A stretch of DNA of 39,553 nucleotides, from NCBI GenBank assembly GCA_022828105.1, contig JAJEJC010000001.1, positions 69,918 through 109,470 of the forward strand, given 5' to 3'. This document shows, piece by piece, positions 9,856-33,679 of the stretch. Below the pieces are notes generated by a model that did no database searches, had not been told where the DNA came from, and saw only the letters and a list, made by a program, of their open reading frames with translations. The translations under genes and the position numbers were made by a program. The first letter of the stretch is position 1. Every line of letters starts with the position of its first letter. Origin of the DNA: Dehalococcoidia bacterium. GTDB taxonomy: Bacteria; Chloroflexota; Dehalococcoidia; Bin125.

Positions 9856-9907
9856 CCCTCTCCCCCCGCAGAGCGGGGGGAGATGTCGCGTAGCGACAGA
9901 GGAGGGG
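9856..9907 (+). repeat. Double-hairpin palindromic element, copy 1
   Basis: The order is outer arm CCCTCT, hairpin 1 (CCCCCCGC-AGA-GCGGGGGG), hairpin 2 (TGTCGC-GTA-GCGACA) and closing arm AGAGGAGGGG. It sits between convergent genes (crotonase and Rieske), where it could also act as an mRNA end. The second stem differs from other copies by paired changes. Confidence 0.85.
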
Positions 9908-13844: not shown

Positions 13845-13897
13845 CCCCTCTCCCCCCCGCCCCCAGGCGGGGGGAGATGCCGAAGGCAGAAGGGGGC
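13845..13897 (+). repeat. Double-hairpin palindromic element, copy 2
   Basis: The first hairpin is CCCCCCGCC/GGCGGGGGG and the second is the short form TGCC-GAA-GGCA, closed by CCCCTCT/AGAAGGGGG. It lies just upstream of the CoA-transferase start. Together with copy 3 in the opposite orientation it forms an inverted pair. Confidence 0.8.
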
Positions 13898-13919
13898 CGC
13901 CCCAGCACGACGCGGAGTG

Positions 13920-13973
13920 CCCCCCTCTGTCCCTACGGGACATCTCCCCCCGCTGGCGCGGGGGGAGAGGGGA
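13920..13973 (-). repeat. Double-hairpin palindromic element, copy 3 (inverted)
   Basis: Read on the minus strand it has the outer arm CCCCTCT, hairpin 1 CCCCCCGC/GCGGGGGG, hairpin 2 TGTCCC-GTA-GGGACA and arm AGAGGGGGG. It is separated from copy 2 by about 22 bp and lies downstream of the hflX stop. Confidence 0.85.
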
Positions 13974-27503: not shown

Positions 27504-27509
27504 TCCCCA

Positions 27510-27531
27510 GTCCCGGCCCCCGAGCCGGGAC
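27510..27531 (+). terminator. GC-rich hairpin after purB
   Basis: An 8-bp stem GTCCCGGC/GCCGGGAC with a 6-nt loop begins 6 bp after the purB stop. No T-tract follows. Position suggests an mRNA end or pausing structure, but it could be a plain palindrome. Confidence 0.4.
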
Positions 27532-27541
27532 CCGCTCGATT

Positions 27542-27579
27542 CCCCTCTCCCCCCGCTCCAAAGGGGCAGATGCCAATCG
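27542..27579 (+). repeat. Degenerate copy of the double-hairpin element
   Basis: CCCCTCTCCCCCCGC and a trailing AGATGCC are recognisable, but the right arm of hairpin 1 is shortened (AAAGGGGC) and hairpin 2 is broken. A full copy follows within 10 bp, which suggests insertion next to or duplication of an older copy. Confidence 0.5.
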
Positions 27580-27586
27580 CCCACTT

Positions 27587-27636
27587 CCCCTCTCCCCCCG
27601 CCTCCGGCGGGGGGAGATGCCGAAGGCAGAGGGGGG
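27587..27636 (+). repeat. Double-hairpin palindromic element, copy 4
   Basis: Outer arm CCCCTCT, hairpin 1 CCCCCCGCC-TCC-GGCGGGGGG, hairpin 2 in the short TGCC-GAA-GGCA form, and arm AGAGGGGGG. It lies between purB and the convergent gene ending at 27699. The remaining bases of this roughly 195-bp gap show no gene. Confidence 0.85.
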
Positions 27637-27698
27637 CTCCCCTCCCCCGCAACGCCGAAGCTCGGCAGAGGCCCTACGAAGCCGGCGAAGACGGACTC

Positions 27699-28082
27699 CT
27701 AGCGCGACTCCACAACGACTCTCCCGCCGGGTTCGACGTCAATGTGCAGCTCGTAACCCCGAAGCAGCGACATGCCCACCAAAGGCGTCGTGGCCGCAGC
27801 GTCCGCCAGGCCGTAGCGCATTTGCCCGTCCCAGAGCACGCCCATGTGATGCAGCGTCCGATGCCCAACCCGCAGCAGCCAAACGTCGACAGCCTCCGGC
27901 TGCTGCGCGCGCAAACTCTTGGACGCAGCCCGTAGGTCCTCGGCCAGCGCCCAGCAGCCGCTCTCCACGTCAATCGCGACGTACTCCCCCTCATGATCCC
28001 GCTCAACCTGCGCCCGCACCACACGCTCGTAAATGTCGTCGCCCAGACGGGCAATCTCTCCGGCAGGCCGGGACTTCGACAT
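27699..28082 (-). CDS. Hypothetical protein fused to the C-terminal end of a clan AA aspartic protease (probable relic fusion)
   Basis: This is a 127-residue protein. Residues 1-79 (IARLGDDIYERV, EGEYVAIDVESG, VWLLRVGHRTLHH) resemble the small hypothetical proteins often encoded next to single-domain clan AA (retropepsin-like) proteases. Residues 81-127 (VLWDGQMRYGLAD, TPLVGMSLLRGYELHIDVEPGG) look like the last third of such a protease. The catalytic D-T/S-G half is absent, so the protein should have no protease activity. An in-frame deletion that fused a two-gene module is the simplest reading. A strong GGAGGAG precedes the ATG at 28082. The whole interpretation is pattern-based. Confidence 0.6.
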   Translation of the reverse strand: MSKSRPAGEIARLGDDIYERVVRAQVERDHEGEYVAIDVESGCWALAEDLRAASKSLRAQQPEAVDVWLLRVGHRTLHHMGVLWDGQMRYGLADAAATTPLVGMSLLRGYELHIDVEPGGRVVVESR

Positions 28083-28133
28083 CGCGTGCTCCTCCGCTCC
28101 AGTATGCCAGACAGACTCAGGTGCACTCCGACT

Positions 28134-28182
28134 CCCCTCTCCCCCCGCCTCCGGCGGGGGGAGATGCCGAAGGCAGGGGGGG
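28134..28182 (+). repeat. Double-hairpin palindromic element, copy 5
   Basis: Hairpin 1 is CCCCCCGCC-TCC-GGCGGGGGG and hairpin 2 is TGCC-GAA-GGCA. The closing arm has lost one A relative to copy 4. It lies in the 204-bp gap between two divergent genes (28082 minus, 28287 plus); the remainder of that gap is C/A-rich with no gene seen. Confidence 0.85.
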
Positions 28183-28286
28183 CTCCCCAACACCCAAGTC
28201 AACCCCACAACACACCACAACCCCACATCGAACACCCGTTCACATACCATCGATCCCCTGACACCACCAAGAGCAGGAGTTCTCCG

Positions 28287-28682
28287 TTGTCCCACGCCGC
28301 TAACCCACCTCTCCCCTTCACCAACGAAGCCATCATCAACCGCCTCCGACACCAGGCCACCAACGGCCCCGCCTACGTCCAACACAGCGCCACCAAGGCC
28401 CTCGCACACATCAAGGGCCTCTACGCCCAGGCCCACTACGAGGCCAGACTGGCCTACGACACTGCCCGCGTCGCTCTACGCGACTCTGTCGCGGATGCCG
28501 CCACCGACACGCAGCGGGCCGACGACGGCAAGATGTGCCTCGCCAAGCGCATGGAAGGCCTCAACAACGGCACCCTCCAGCCCACCCCCGAAGAACTCGC
28601 CCACTTCGAGCCGGACAACCCGGCTCAGGCCGACGATGGCGACGAAGACCACCCAGAGGAGCAGGAAGATGAACCTCCCTAA
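28287..28682 (+). CDS. Small helical protein with acidic tail upstream of the terminase (unknown function)
   Basis: This 131-residue protein starts at a TTG (28287) with GCAGGAG 7 nt upstream. Residues 12-95 look helical (INRLRHQATNGPAYVQHSATKALAHIKG and AHYEARLAYDTARVALRDSV). The last 25 or so residues are dominated by Asp, Glu and Pro. It ends 14 bp inside the terminase start, so the two are probably co-translated. Its size, helical content and position before a large terminase gene would suit a small terminase subunit, but I see no recognised small-terminase signature. I do not recognise the family. Confidence 0.55.
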   Translation: MSHAANPPLPFTNEAIINRLRHQATNGPAYVQHSATKALAHIKGLYAQAHYEARLAYDTARVALRDSVADAATDTQRADDGKMCLAKRMEGLNNGTLQPTPEELAHFEPDNPAQADDGDEDHPEEQEDEPP

Positions 28683-30231
28683 TGTCCGCACGCGCCTGTC
28701 GCCCGCGGCGCTCGCCGCCGCACACAGCGAACGGCGTTTTTTCCCGACCAAACGCCAGCGCGAGCTCTTTCAGCAGCTCCTCAGCGCCCCCTACTCCAAA
28801 ACTGACGCCGATCAGGACGGAGAACAGTCCCGCGTGTCCGATTCGCTCACCCTGTTGGGCTACGGCGGCGCCATGGGCGGCGGCAAGACCCGCGCCATTG
28901 CCGAACTTGCCATCGACGCCGCGCTCGCCTTCCCCGGCAACAACGTCCTCGTCGCACGTCACCATCTCTCCGACCTCTCCTCCACCACCATGAAGGAGTT
29001 CTTCCAGGTCTGCCCGCCTCATCTCATCCAGCGCCGCCGGCAGGCCCCCACCAGCCTCGTCCAGCTTCGCCTGCCCGGCTGGCCCTCGGGACGGTACTCG
29101 ACCGTCAACTTCCGCCACCTCTCCGACTGGCACGGCCTCGGCTCGCAGCAATACGGCGCCGTCCTCATCGACGAAGCCGGTCAGGTCGACGAAGACGCCG
29201 CCCTCATGCTGCTCACCCGCCTCCGACATCCCGCCCAGCCCCAGCGCTGGTTCGTCGCCGCCTCCAACCCCTGGCCCGGCTGGTTCCAGCGCTGGTTCGT
29301 CCGACGCGAACTGCCCGAAGACGCGCTCAACGCAGCCCGCGGACAGCTCGCCTTCGTCCCCGCCAGGATCGCCGACAACCCCTATCTGCCCGTCAACTAC
29401 GCCGAGATCAATCACGCCCTGATGCCCCCCTCCTGGCGTGAACGCTTCCTCGAAGGACGCTTTGACGCGCTCATGAACCGCGTCTACCCCGACTTCGACC
29501 CCGAGCGCCACTGCTGGCACGCGCCACTGCCCCGCTTTTCCCACCTGATCGGCGGCCTTGACTTCGGCGGCCAGGCCGACACCGCCCACCACACCGCCGC
29601 CATCCTCGCCGGCCTCACCCCCTCCGCTCCCCTCTCCCCCCGCCTCCGGCGGGGGGAGATGTCCCGTAGGGACAGAGGGGGGCACGCCCACGCAGACAGA
29701 GGGCGGCATTCCCTCGCCGACAGCGCGGACCACTCCCACGCCCCATCCCACCCCTACACCCTCATCCGCATCGCCGAGTTCGAAGACCGCGGTCCCGGCG
29801 TCATTCAACGCCTCGAACAGTGGCAGCGCCGCTGCCAGCAGCGATTCGGTAGCATCCGCTGGGCCGCCGACCGCTCCCAATCCGCCTGGATCGACCACCA
29901 GCGCCGACAGCAGATCGACGTCGTCCCCGCCTCCGGCGCGCCCGGCTCCGTCCTCTACGGCGTCAACCTCGTCTACCAGTACCTCGCCGCCGACCCGCCC
30001 CTATCCTTCTACACCCCTGAGCTCACCCAGTTCCCCCGGCGCATGAGCGAGTACGTCTGGCAAACCGGCGACGACGCCGATCCCCGGCCGCGAAAGCGCA
30101 ACGACGACCTGCTCGACGCCGACCGCTACATGCACGAACTCCTCCAACACGTGCCCCGCCCCGTCCGTCCCCGCTGGATCAACCTCGACTTCCCGCCGCT
30201 CGGCCGCCCCGCCCTCATCACCGACCGCTGA
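28669..30231 (+). CDS. Phage-type terminase large subunit (Terminase_6-like ATPase plus nuclease)
   Basis: This 520-residue protein has Walker A GGAMGGGKT (66-74), Walker B VLIDEA (165-170) and the coupling motif AASNPWPGW near 197-205, which together form a DNA-packaging ATPase. The nuclease half has an RNase H-like layout with Asp298 (GGLDFGG), Asp401 (AADRSQSAW) and a terminal acidic cluster NDDLLDADRYM (478-488). All catalytic positions look intact. Residues 321-338 are encoded exactly by a palindromic element inserted between the first two nuclease strands, and the following 20 or so residues are low complexity. AGGAGCAGGAAG precedes ATG 28669. No portal, capsid or tail gene is nearby; purB and purC flank the locus. 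A domesticated or orphan terminase is likely. Confidence 0.82.
   Translation: MNLPNVRTRLSPAALAAAHSERRFFPTKRQRELFQQLLSAPYSKTDADQDGEQSRVSDSLTLLGYGGAMGGGKTRAIAELAIDAALAFPGNNVLVARHHLSDLSSTTMKEFFQVCPPHLIQRRRQAPTSLVQLRLPGWPSGRYSTVNFRHLSDWHGLGSQQYGAVLIDEAGQVDEDAALMLLTRLRHPAQPQRWFVAASNPWPGWFQRWFVRRELPEDALNAARGQLAFVPARIADNPYLPVNYAEINHALMPPSWRERFLEGRFDALMNRVYPDFDPERHCWHAPLPRFSHLIGGLDFGGQADTAHHTAAILAGLTPSAPLSPRLRRGEMSRRDRGGHAHADRGRHSLADSADHSHAPSHPYTLIRIAEFEDRGPGVIQRLEQWQRRCQQRFGSIRWAADRSQSAWIDHQRRQQIDVVPASGAPGSVLYGVNLVYQYLAADPPLSFYTPELTQFPRRMSEYVWQTGDDADPRPRKRNDDLLDADRYMHELLQHVPRPVRPRWINLDFPPLGRPALITDR
29629..29682 (+). repeat. Double-hairpin palindromic element inside the terminase gene, copy 6
   Basis: This is a full copy: CCCCTCT, hairpin 1 CCCCCCGCC-TCC-GGCGGGGGG, hairpin 2 TGTCCC-GTA-GGGACA, then AGAGGGGGG. 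It is 54 nt long and in frame, encoding the 18 residues PLSPRLRRGEMSRRDRGG. The bases after it (to about 29735) look like a further degraded, GC-rich insertion. Confidence 0.9.
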
Positions 30232-30273
30232 GTTTCTCACTCCACGGAGGCCGATTATTCTGTCAACTTGACC

Positions 30274-30279
30274 TAAGAT
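30274..30279 (+). promoter_or_regulatory. Candidate -10 box of purC
   Basis: TAAGAT lies 19 nt upstream of the purC ATG and is followed by an AAGAGGAG ribosome-binding site (30285-30292). It suggests a short-leader transcript separate from the terminase gene. No convincing -35 box is seen at normal spacing. Confidence 0.35.
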
Positions 30280-30298
30280 CGCGCAAGAGGAGTTTGCG

Positions 30299-31224: not shown

Positions 31225-31521
31225 ATGCAGTACAAGGCCGAGATTCACGTCACCCTCAAGCGCACGGTCAACGATCCGCAGGGCCTGGCCATCCGCGGCG
31301 GGCTGCACTCGCTCGGATTCGAGACCGTCGAGTCCGTCCGAGCCGGCAAGTTCATCGAAGTCTGGCTGGAGGCAGACTCGGCGCAAGAAGCCCAGCGCCT
31401 TGCCGATGACATGTCGGACCGATTGTTGGCGAACCCGGTGATCGAGGACTATCGGGTGGAACTAGTTGCAGCGGACCAGGCTCGCACCTCCCCCCGCTCT
31501 GCGGGGGGAGGTGTCACGTAG
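31225..31521 (+). CDS. purS: Phosphoribosylformylglycinamidine synthase subunit PurS
   Basis: This 98-residue protein has YKAEIHVTLKRTVNDPQG, the typical PurS start, and LGFETVESVRAGKFIEVWLEA. PurS forms a complex with PurQ and small PurL that makes FGAM. The family is usually about 80-85 residues long. Here residues after about 86 (TSPRSAGGGVT) and the TAG stop are supplied by a palindromic element beginning at 31486, so the original C-terminus has been replaced or extended. purQ and purL do not follow; hisB lies next on the opposite strand. The gene is 14 bp after purC. Confidence 0.9.
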   Translation: MQYKAEIHVTLKRTVNDPQGLAIRGGLHSLGFETVESVRAGKFIEVWLEADSAQEAQRLADDMSDRLLANPVIEDYRVELVAADQARTSPRSAGGGVT

Positions 31522-31535
31522 TGACGGAGGGGGGG
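31486..31535 (+). repeat. Double-hairpin palindromic element overlapping the purS end, copy 7
   Basis: Hairpin 1 is ACCTCCCCCCGC-TCT-GCGGGGGGAGGT, longer than in other copies. Hairpin 2 is GTCAC-GTA-GTGAC, again with a paired change. The purS stop TAG falls at the hairpin 2 loop and stem. It also sits at the convergent purS/hisB junction. Confidence 0.85.
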
Positions 31536-32664: not shown

Positions 32665-32821
32665 TCTCTCCCCCCGCTCCGCTGGGAGTGTCGCTGTCTC
32701 CTCCCCGCTCCGCGGAGAGTGTCGCAGTCCCTTCCCTTCTCCCCCCGCTCCGCGGAGAGTGTCGCAGTCCCTTCCCTTCTCCCCCCGCTCCGCGGGGGGA
32801 GATGCCGAAGGCAGAGGGGGG
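32665..32821 (+). repeat. Cluster of tandem 40-bp repeats ending in a full double-hairpin element, copy 8
   Basis: The string CGCTCCGCGGAGAGTGTCG recurs with a 40-bp period (copies beginning near 32706 and 32746). A third copy at about 32786 turns into a full element with hairpin 1 CCCCCGC-TCC-GCGGGGG and hairpin 2 TGCC-GAA-GGCA. A diverged unit precedes them (from 32665). The spacer TGTCGCAGTCCCTTCCCTT has lost hairpin 2. It fills the 160-bp convergent gap between the ferritin-like and PEP-mutase-like genes. Confidence 0.85.
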
Positions 32822-33679
32822 CTACCCCGGCCGCTCCGTCGTCCGCTCCTCAATCGCGTACAGCTCGTCCATCCCCGCCATCTGCTGCACTTCGCGATAC
32901 AGTGACATCAGCTCGTCGACCTCGCGGCCCGATCCACCGCTCGCGGCGATGCTGCGATACGCATCCCGCATTGCGCCATAGGCCGCCACCTGGCCGGTGA
33001 ACGGATCGATCAGGACGTTGAAGCCGTGTCCGGCCAACGCCTCGCGATCCAGCCGGTCGGCCGGCGCCATCATCGAGAGCGGACCGCCGAGCACGCGCCC
33101 CGCTTCCGCGATCTGCTCGGGGTCGTTGGTGAAGAGCATGAGCACGTCGGCACCGGCGTCGCGGTAGGCGGCGCAGCGTTCGAGGGCACGCTCGAAGGAC
33201 TCGTTGCGGACAGCTCCGGTGCGGGCGATGATGATGAAGTCGTCGTCGCGCCGAGCGTCGAACGCCTCGCGCACCTTGTCGACCATCATCGGCATGGGCA
33301 CCAGGTGCTCGACACCCTTGTGATGATGCGCCCGCTTGGGCGCGACCTGGTCCTCGATCTCAATCGCCGCCGCACCGGACGCCTCAATCTCCCGAACCGC
33401 GCGCGTCGTGTGCAGCGCGTCGCCAAAGCCGACCCCGCCGTCGACAATAAGCGGTACATTTGAGCGAGCAGTGATCTGCCGCGTCAGCCCCGCAACCTCG
33501 GTGATCGTCAGCAGCGCCTCGGACACGGATAGCTGGAATCCGAATCCACCCCCGGAAAGGTACGCAGCCTCAAACCCAAGCGACTCAACCAGCCGAGCAG
33601 AGAGCGGGTCCAGGGCCACCGGCGCCAGGATCGGTTGTCCCGAGCGGACGAGGTTGGCGAAGTGTTGTCGATTGGTCAT
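32822..33679 (-). CDS. Isocitrate lyase / PEP mutase superfamily protein with altered active site
   Basis: This 285-residue protein has APVALDPLSARLVESLGFEAAYLSGGG, VPLIVDGGVGFGDA and IEIEDQVAPKRAHHHKG, matching the PrpB/PEP-mutase barrel. Two catalytic positions differ from PrpB-type lyases: the cysteine of KKCGH is Ala117 (PKRAHHH), and DxDxG reads DGGVG, so one metal-binding Asp is Gly82. A classic methylisocitrate lyase reaction is therefore unlikely; a hydrolase or decarboxylase-like reaction is possible. I chose ATG 33679 because it shares a base with the stop of the CoA-transferase (TAATG). The gene stop directly adjoins a palindromic element. Confidence 0.82.
   Translation of the reverse strand: MTNRQHFANLVRSGQPILAPVALDPLSARLVESLGFEAAYLSGGGFGFQLSVSEALLTITEVAGLTRQITARSNVPLIVDGGVGFGDALHTTRAVREIEASGAAAIEIEDQVAPKRAHHHKGVEHLVPMPMMVDKVREAFDARRDDDFIIIARTGAVRNESFERALERCAAYRDAGADVLMLFTNDPEQIAEAGRVLGGPLSMMAPADRLDREALAGHGFNVLIDPFTGQVAAYGAMRDAYRSIAASGGSGREVDELMSLYREVQQMAGMDELYAIEERTTERPG

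Follow-up and report, generated by a model that had tools for sequence, protein, structure and literature searches.

In this study, we describe a palindromic repeat that lies in frame in the terminase large subunit (TerL) gene of a Dehalococcoidia bacterium, at a turn of the protein that has received different palindromic repeats in several of its relatives. The element is a REP/RPE-like intragenic palindrome, in the broad sense of these terms, in Chloroflexota, and its most interesting feature is that unrelated proteins have been invaded repeatedly at the same few turns. The gene was found in a stretch of 39,553 nucleotides (GenBank assembly GCA_022828105.1, contig JAJEJC010000001.1, positions 69,918 to 109,470), hereafter called the window, the features of which are listed in Table 1. 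Very probably, a REP-like repeat was copied into the TerL turn, is read through and is tolerated, and survivorship explains why such insertions cluster.

Table 1. Features of the window discussed in this study. Positions are those of the window.
Feature	Position	Strand	Remarks
Element, T subtype	9858..9906	+	
Inverted element pair (C subtype on +, T subtype on -)	13846..13965	.	BIME-like
Element, C subtype	27586..27648	+	Intergenic
Element, C subtype	28133..28195	+	Just upstream of the TerL cassette
Small upstream gene	28287..28682	+	Overlaps the TerL start; terminase small-subunit position
Terminase large subunit (TerL), 520 aa	28669..30231	+	Pfam, phrog and structure match
Nuclease strand 1 (LIGGLDF region)	29542..29562	+	With catalytic Asp298 (codon 29560-29562)
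In-frame palindromic element, T subtype	29629..29682	+	Residues 321-338, PLSPRLRRGEMSRRDRGG
Hairpin I	29634..29658	+	CTCCCCCCGCC-TCC-GGCGGGGGGAG
Hairpin II	29660..29674	+	TGTCCC-GTA-GGGACA; RNA fold and covariation
3' outer-stem arm GAGGGGGG	29675..29682	+	Pairs with the 5' end CCCCTC (about 29629-29634); RNA fold
Additional loop sequence, residues 339-359	29683..29745	+	Missing from short-loop relatives
Element, T subtype	31486..31534	+	
Element, C subtype	32772..32833	+	Adjoins a partial copy at 32732

The element and its repeat family

Counted from the ATG at 28669, the 54 nt of the element (CCCCTCTCCCCCCGCCTCCGGCGGGGGGAGATGTCCCGTAGGGACAGAGGGGGG) and the 18-residue peptide that they specify in the TerL frame are placed exactly as in a preliminary description of this DNA. 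The element is also open in two of the three forward frames, as had been stated there, and the three reverse frames are open too. RNA folding of positions 29620-29690 gave an outer stem around two hairpins (-48.6 kcal/mol, z -3.49).

The element belongs to a repeat family with two subtypes, T (TGTCNCGNNGNGACA) and C (TGCCGAAGGCA). Copy numbers are based on pattern searches and on sampled stretches of the genome. In the source genome (2.74 Mb, 10 contigs) the two-subtype pattern detected 148 copies and the 14-mer CGGGGGGAGATGTC, with one mismatch allowed, 169 matches, versus none for the reversed control of either search. Simulation of the window under an order-5 Markov model produced no copy in any of 30 runs, versus six observed. 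The sampled DNA (117 kb) harbors 66 distinct repeats, few of which fall within genes. Copies of the T and C subtypes often form inverted pairs 61-71 nt apart, so that a BIME/REPIN arrangement is present, and arrays occur as well. Hairpin II is supported by covariation: its variable pair is complementary in 66/66 T-subtype copies, and all four pair types are represented (C-G 33, A-T 23, T-A 5, G-C 5). Within the genus, 14 of 15 genomes contain between 3 and 197 copies, with the highest number in G004 and none in G008, and a search of 46 other genomes with the two-subtype pattern returned one copy in total. Rfam gave no match in the window. In two instances, the TerL loop of L010 (G003) and locus L042 of the source genome (G000), a second palindrome of the CCCCTGCGTACGCAGGGG type is nested in hairpin II of the repeat.

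The preliminary description had taken the 20 or so codons that follow the element for insertion debris. These codons (residues 339-359) are missing in the short-loop relatives and modelled as disordered, which agrees with this view, and their first 13 nt (CACGCCCACGCAG) are identical to the stretch after an array copy at C4:378,932 of the source genome. The exact match between the TerL insert and this copy extends over 25 nt, 13 of them beyond the element; therefore, the array is a possible source of the insert, judged from this sequence identity. An origin of the 21 codons as the remnant of a second repeat was considered as well and not retained, the match being weak (19 nt at 89% identity, E 0.28). 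The surrounding region (C4:375,000-385,000; L052-L058) is densely filled by an array in which T and C repeats alternate, and letters at its junctions are found again in the TerL insert.

The insert is modelled as a loop of the terminase nuclease domain

The protein matches Pfam Terminase_3 (1.1e-7) and the phrog_2 terminase large subunit family (3.8e-24), and it possesses the Walker ATPase and the RNase H-like nuclease with three acidic residues that characterize phage terminase large subunits. The reading frame continues through the insert, and Asp298, Asp401, Asp485 and the ATPase motifs are intact, in line with the earlier reading that the downstream catalytic motifs are kept. An AlphaFold2 model of the nuclease domain, built from 12 sequences with distant viral rows included, reached a pTM of 0.70, with a pLDDT of 85-97 in the core and below 50 at residues 321-359. 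Strands were modelled at 292-298, 309-318 and 363-373. Thus, the insert is not located between the first two nuclease strands, as had been proposed, strand 1 being the LIGGLDF region; instead, the model places residues 321-359 as a disordered surface loop between strands 2 and 3. The solved structure closest to this model is TerL of phage D6E (Z 21.6, 178 residues, 2.2 A), which has a tight turn at the position of the insert in the profile alignment. With TerL alone, phmmer found no match in the PDB, and the profile search did. A full-length prediction of TerL (11 sequences) was discarded as unusable at a pLDDT of 44.6, and the domain model alone was used.

The same turns are invaded repeatedly

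Among 27 related TerLs of the genus and family, 11 have a short turn (L012-L015, L019-L021, L023-L025 and L030; for example AGLTSRQAPCGPNILVR) and 16 a longer loop at exactly that place. The short-turn proteins, as relatives free of the insert, mark the limits of the insertion. Palindromic repeats were found in 10 of the 16 long loops, and the other six hold different inserts that are low in complexity or unrecognised. The repeats are of the T type in the gene under study (L001), L004 and L005, of the C type in L009, L010 and L018, and of related types in L007 and L022. The loop of L003 contains a different palindrome (CTCTCCCCGAGGGAGAGGGCTAGGGTGAGGG), and that of L011 has grown to 177 residues with several repeat copies, in frame and stop-free. 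All inserts examined lack stop codons and keep the frame. When the loop columns are left out of the TerL alignment, the resulting tree requires at least six changes of insert state. Distant orthologues that conserve the peptide without the DNA element, which would speak against an insertion, were sought and not found; the distant viral TerLs L126 and L127 (39-41% identity) have the short turn, and two scans of viral contigs for further TerL relatives returned the query contigs only. A palindromic insertion inside the terminase is thereby supported, with the amendment that insertions have occurred at this loop repeatedly, and not in a single event. Few of the sampled repeats fall within genes and yet both TerL copies of the source genome (L001 and L018) are filled; therefore, the TerL loop is unusually receptive to repeats.

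Besides the comparison with insert-free orthologues and the structure prediction, both of which favored its interpretation, the preliminary description had suggested a search for other proteins that carry the peptide, and peptides of the same repeats were indeed found. In the sampled DNA, in-frame repeats occur in MurE, in a MaoC-like protein and in the linkers of two CoA-transferase III proteins. The MurE site is filled in nine genomes and empty in five (one was not scored), with at least three changes on a five-gene species tree. MurE copies have hairpin I in common and differ in hairpin II. Hairpin I is conserved at 96.6%, versus 68% at flanking third codon positions; however, 6% of the 26-nt flank windows reach similar values, and extra conservation is not claimed. 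The MaoC-like protein is filled in six genomes, with several types of repeat sequence, and empty in nine (TPTDSG or similar), and its insert state changes at least five times on the same tree. Since the original turn TPTDSG was replaced instead of simply split, the event in the MaoC-like protein is not a clean insertion. A candidate ORF in L074 was set aside because it is probably spurious.

In our model, a non-autonomous REP-like repeat of about 50 nt, consisting of an outer stem and two hairpins, was copied into TerL at the turn between strands 2 and 3 by a factor that would act in trans. As the insert keeps the frame and has no stop, the ribosome presumably reads through it, and TerL would gain a flexible surface peptide of 18 residues (about 39 with the flank) while keeping its catalytic core. 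Insertions elsewhere in genes would mostly be purged by selection, and those in loops and linkers would survive. Survival limited to loops and linkers may thus account for the fact that, in TerL, the MaoC-like protein, MurE and the CoA-transferases, one and the same turn holds different repeats in different genomes. Regarding the copying factor, transposases of the Y1 family including RAYT (PF01797) were not found in 14 of the 15 genus genomes, and a marginal match was obtained in G009 (E 9.4e-4). No target-site duplication was evident at the MaoC-like or TerL junctions; the outer stem is present.

Alternatively, the repeats or their copier might prefer certain sequences or existing repeats, and the recurrence would then reflect targeting or the replacement of one repeat by another. 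Repeated hits at the same turn in TerL, the MaoC-like protein and the CoA-transferase linkers would fit this explanation, as would the nested or multiple repeats in L010, L011 and L022 and the MurE copies that are alike in hairpin I and unlike in hairpin II. Furthermore, nearly all in-gene copies in TerL, MurE, the MaoC-like protein and the CoA-transferases are in sense orientation, with one antisense copy in L078, although the window element, read in antisense, is free of stops in each frame. However, this orientation bias comes from a convenience sample, the empty sites of TerL and of the MaoC-like protein have no evident common target sequence, and every site is a turn or a linker, which tolerance alone would predict. 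We consider such a preference possible but unlikely. It is more doubtful still that the repeats of this genus enter genes in one orientation, mainly at few defined turns, again and again in frame and with turnover of repeat types, as a directed or self-templated re-tagging of loops and not as the remains of random insertion.

The terminase cassette and the fate of its insert

TerL and the small gene upstream of it (28287-30231; L061-L070) form a solitary two-gene cassette that is present at several housekeeping loci across the genus, and no other phage gene was found near it in the surroundings examined. The small gene had no match in family scans, and from its position it is probably the terminase small subunit. 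Each genus genome has between one and six TerL matches. G013 contains two near-identical TerL copies at two of the cassette loci, which suggests recent movement or copying of the cassette. In the window, the cassette is housed in the purB-purC interval (27504-30298; loci compared L199, L201-L206 and L208). In G004 and G007, purB and purC are adjacent (about 100 and 30 bp) without a cassette, and G011 has kept the small gene and an N-terminal stub of TerL upstream of purC; stub-like sequence occurs in other species too. Thus, the TerL copy at purB-purC could be on its way out, as it has been lost or truncated in other species.

With the cassette missing or truncated at this site in relatives, and standing without other phage genes, TerL might be a decaying pseudogene remnant and the insert neutral rubbish. 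However, the frame of 520 aa and the catalytic residues are intact, and dN/dS (NG86) ranges from 0.08 to 0.30 upstream and from 0.10 to 0.30 downstream of the loop; these ranges include pairs of insert-bearing genes such as L010/L018. These values reflect purifying selection on both sides of the loop and suggest that TerL is functional despite its insert. Decay is therefore an improbable explanation.

The insert could also be present in DNA and mRNA and absent from the protein, by ribosome bypassing or by removal of RNA at the hairpin. The hairpins of the mRNA are strong, and inserts that are bypassed or excised are known elsewhere; to our knowledge, no bypass system is known in this bacterial group. 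Moreover, the inserts examined in four protein families are all in frame and stop-free, which would be needless if they were skipped. This argues for translation, and we regard bypassing or removal as very improbable. Equally improbable is a recruitment of the peptide for a function, for instance a contact with DNA or with a partner by an arginine-rich loop: several Arg make the peptide basic, and the domain that bears it cuts DNA, but relatives carry an unrelated insert, an acidic one or none at this place, and the peptide is no more than what a common repeat specifies in one of its frames. The chance of an assembly or binning artefact is close to negligible, since in-frame repeats of a comparable kind, yet different, occur in this loop in independently assembled genomes and the flanks are unique on both sides of the insert, even though the repeat is abundant and contigs of G013 end at the near-identical TerL copies.

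Relation to known repeat systems

Intragenic REPs are GTAG- and CGTC-tagged palindromes, some of which lie in genes in frame; clusters that add 43-82 residues were reported, and recB of two Xanthomonas species carries different REPs at approximately the same site (PMC3733652). The repeats described here are likewise high-copy short palindromes, often arranged as inverted pairs and in some cases located in genes in frame. They also resemble the CGTC REPs, which have no dedicated transposase (PMC3733652), in that no Y1/RAYT was found in 14 of the 15 genus genomes. Unlike the GTAG and CGTC REPs, they carry no terminal tag: the element ends are CCCCTCT... and ...GAGGGGGGC, and GTAG-like letters occur only in the loop of hairpin II, where they are variable. 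Two hairpins within an outer stem, and the recurrence at the same site in several protein families across one genus, further distinguish them from intragenic REPs. The Rickettsia RPEs comprise ten families of about 150 bp (PMC10969869) and are palindromic repeats found in frame in proteins (PMC10969869, PMC3733652). As in the RPEs, an in-frame palindrome adds a peptide to a functional-looking protein here; compared by description, the present element is shorter (about 50 nt) and GC-rich. The inverted T/C pairs and the arrays are reminiscent of the REP/BIME-RAYT (REPIN) systems, from which the family differs in the lack of a Y1/RAYT match beyond the marginal one.

Intragenic REPs and RPEs are already established; as far as the literature was searched, the host group and the scale of the same-site recurrence are new. 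A literal search of the literature for the repeat sequence gave unrelated primer-type matches only. With this study, the decoration of proteins by in-frame palindromes is extended to Chloroflexota that appear to be of the sponge type, where a repeat family keeps adding peptides to functional-looking genes and where empty and filled versions of the same genes are available in many sister species. No known transposase accounts for these repeated events. With several proteins, known insertion points and repeated events, how palindromes enter genes and whether they shape proteins becomes directly testable.

Outside this group, the same two-hairpin right half was observed in the IMG/VR loci L114, L116, L119 and L125 and in Rhizobium plasmids. 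The GGGGGAGATGTC...GACAGAGGGGG repeats of Rhizobium and its relatives, on plasmids and IMG/VR contigs, share this right half, T and C subtypes and inverted pairs, and differ in the loop of hairpin I (CTTGA). Their occurrence hints at transfer or a convergent origin of such repeats in distant bacteria.
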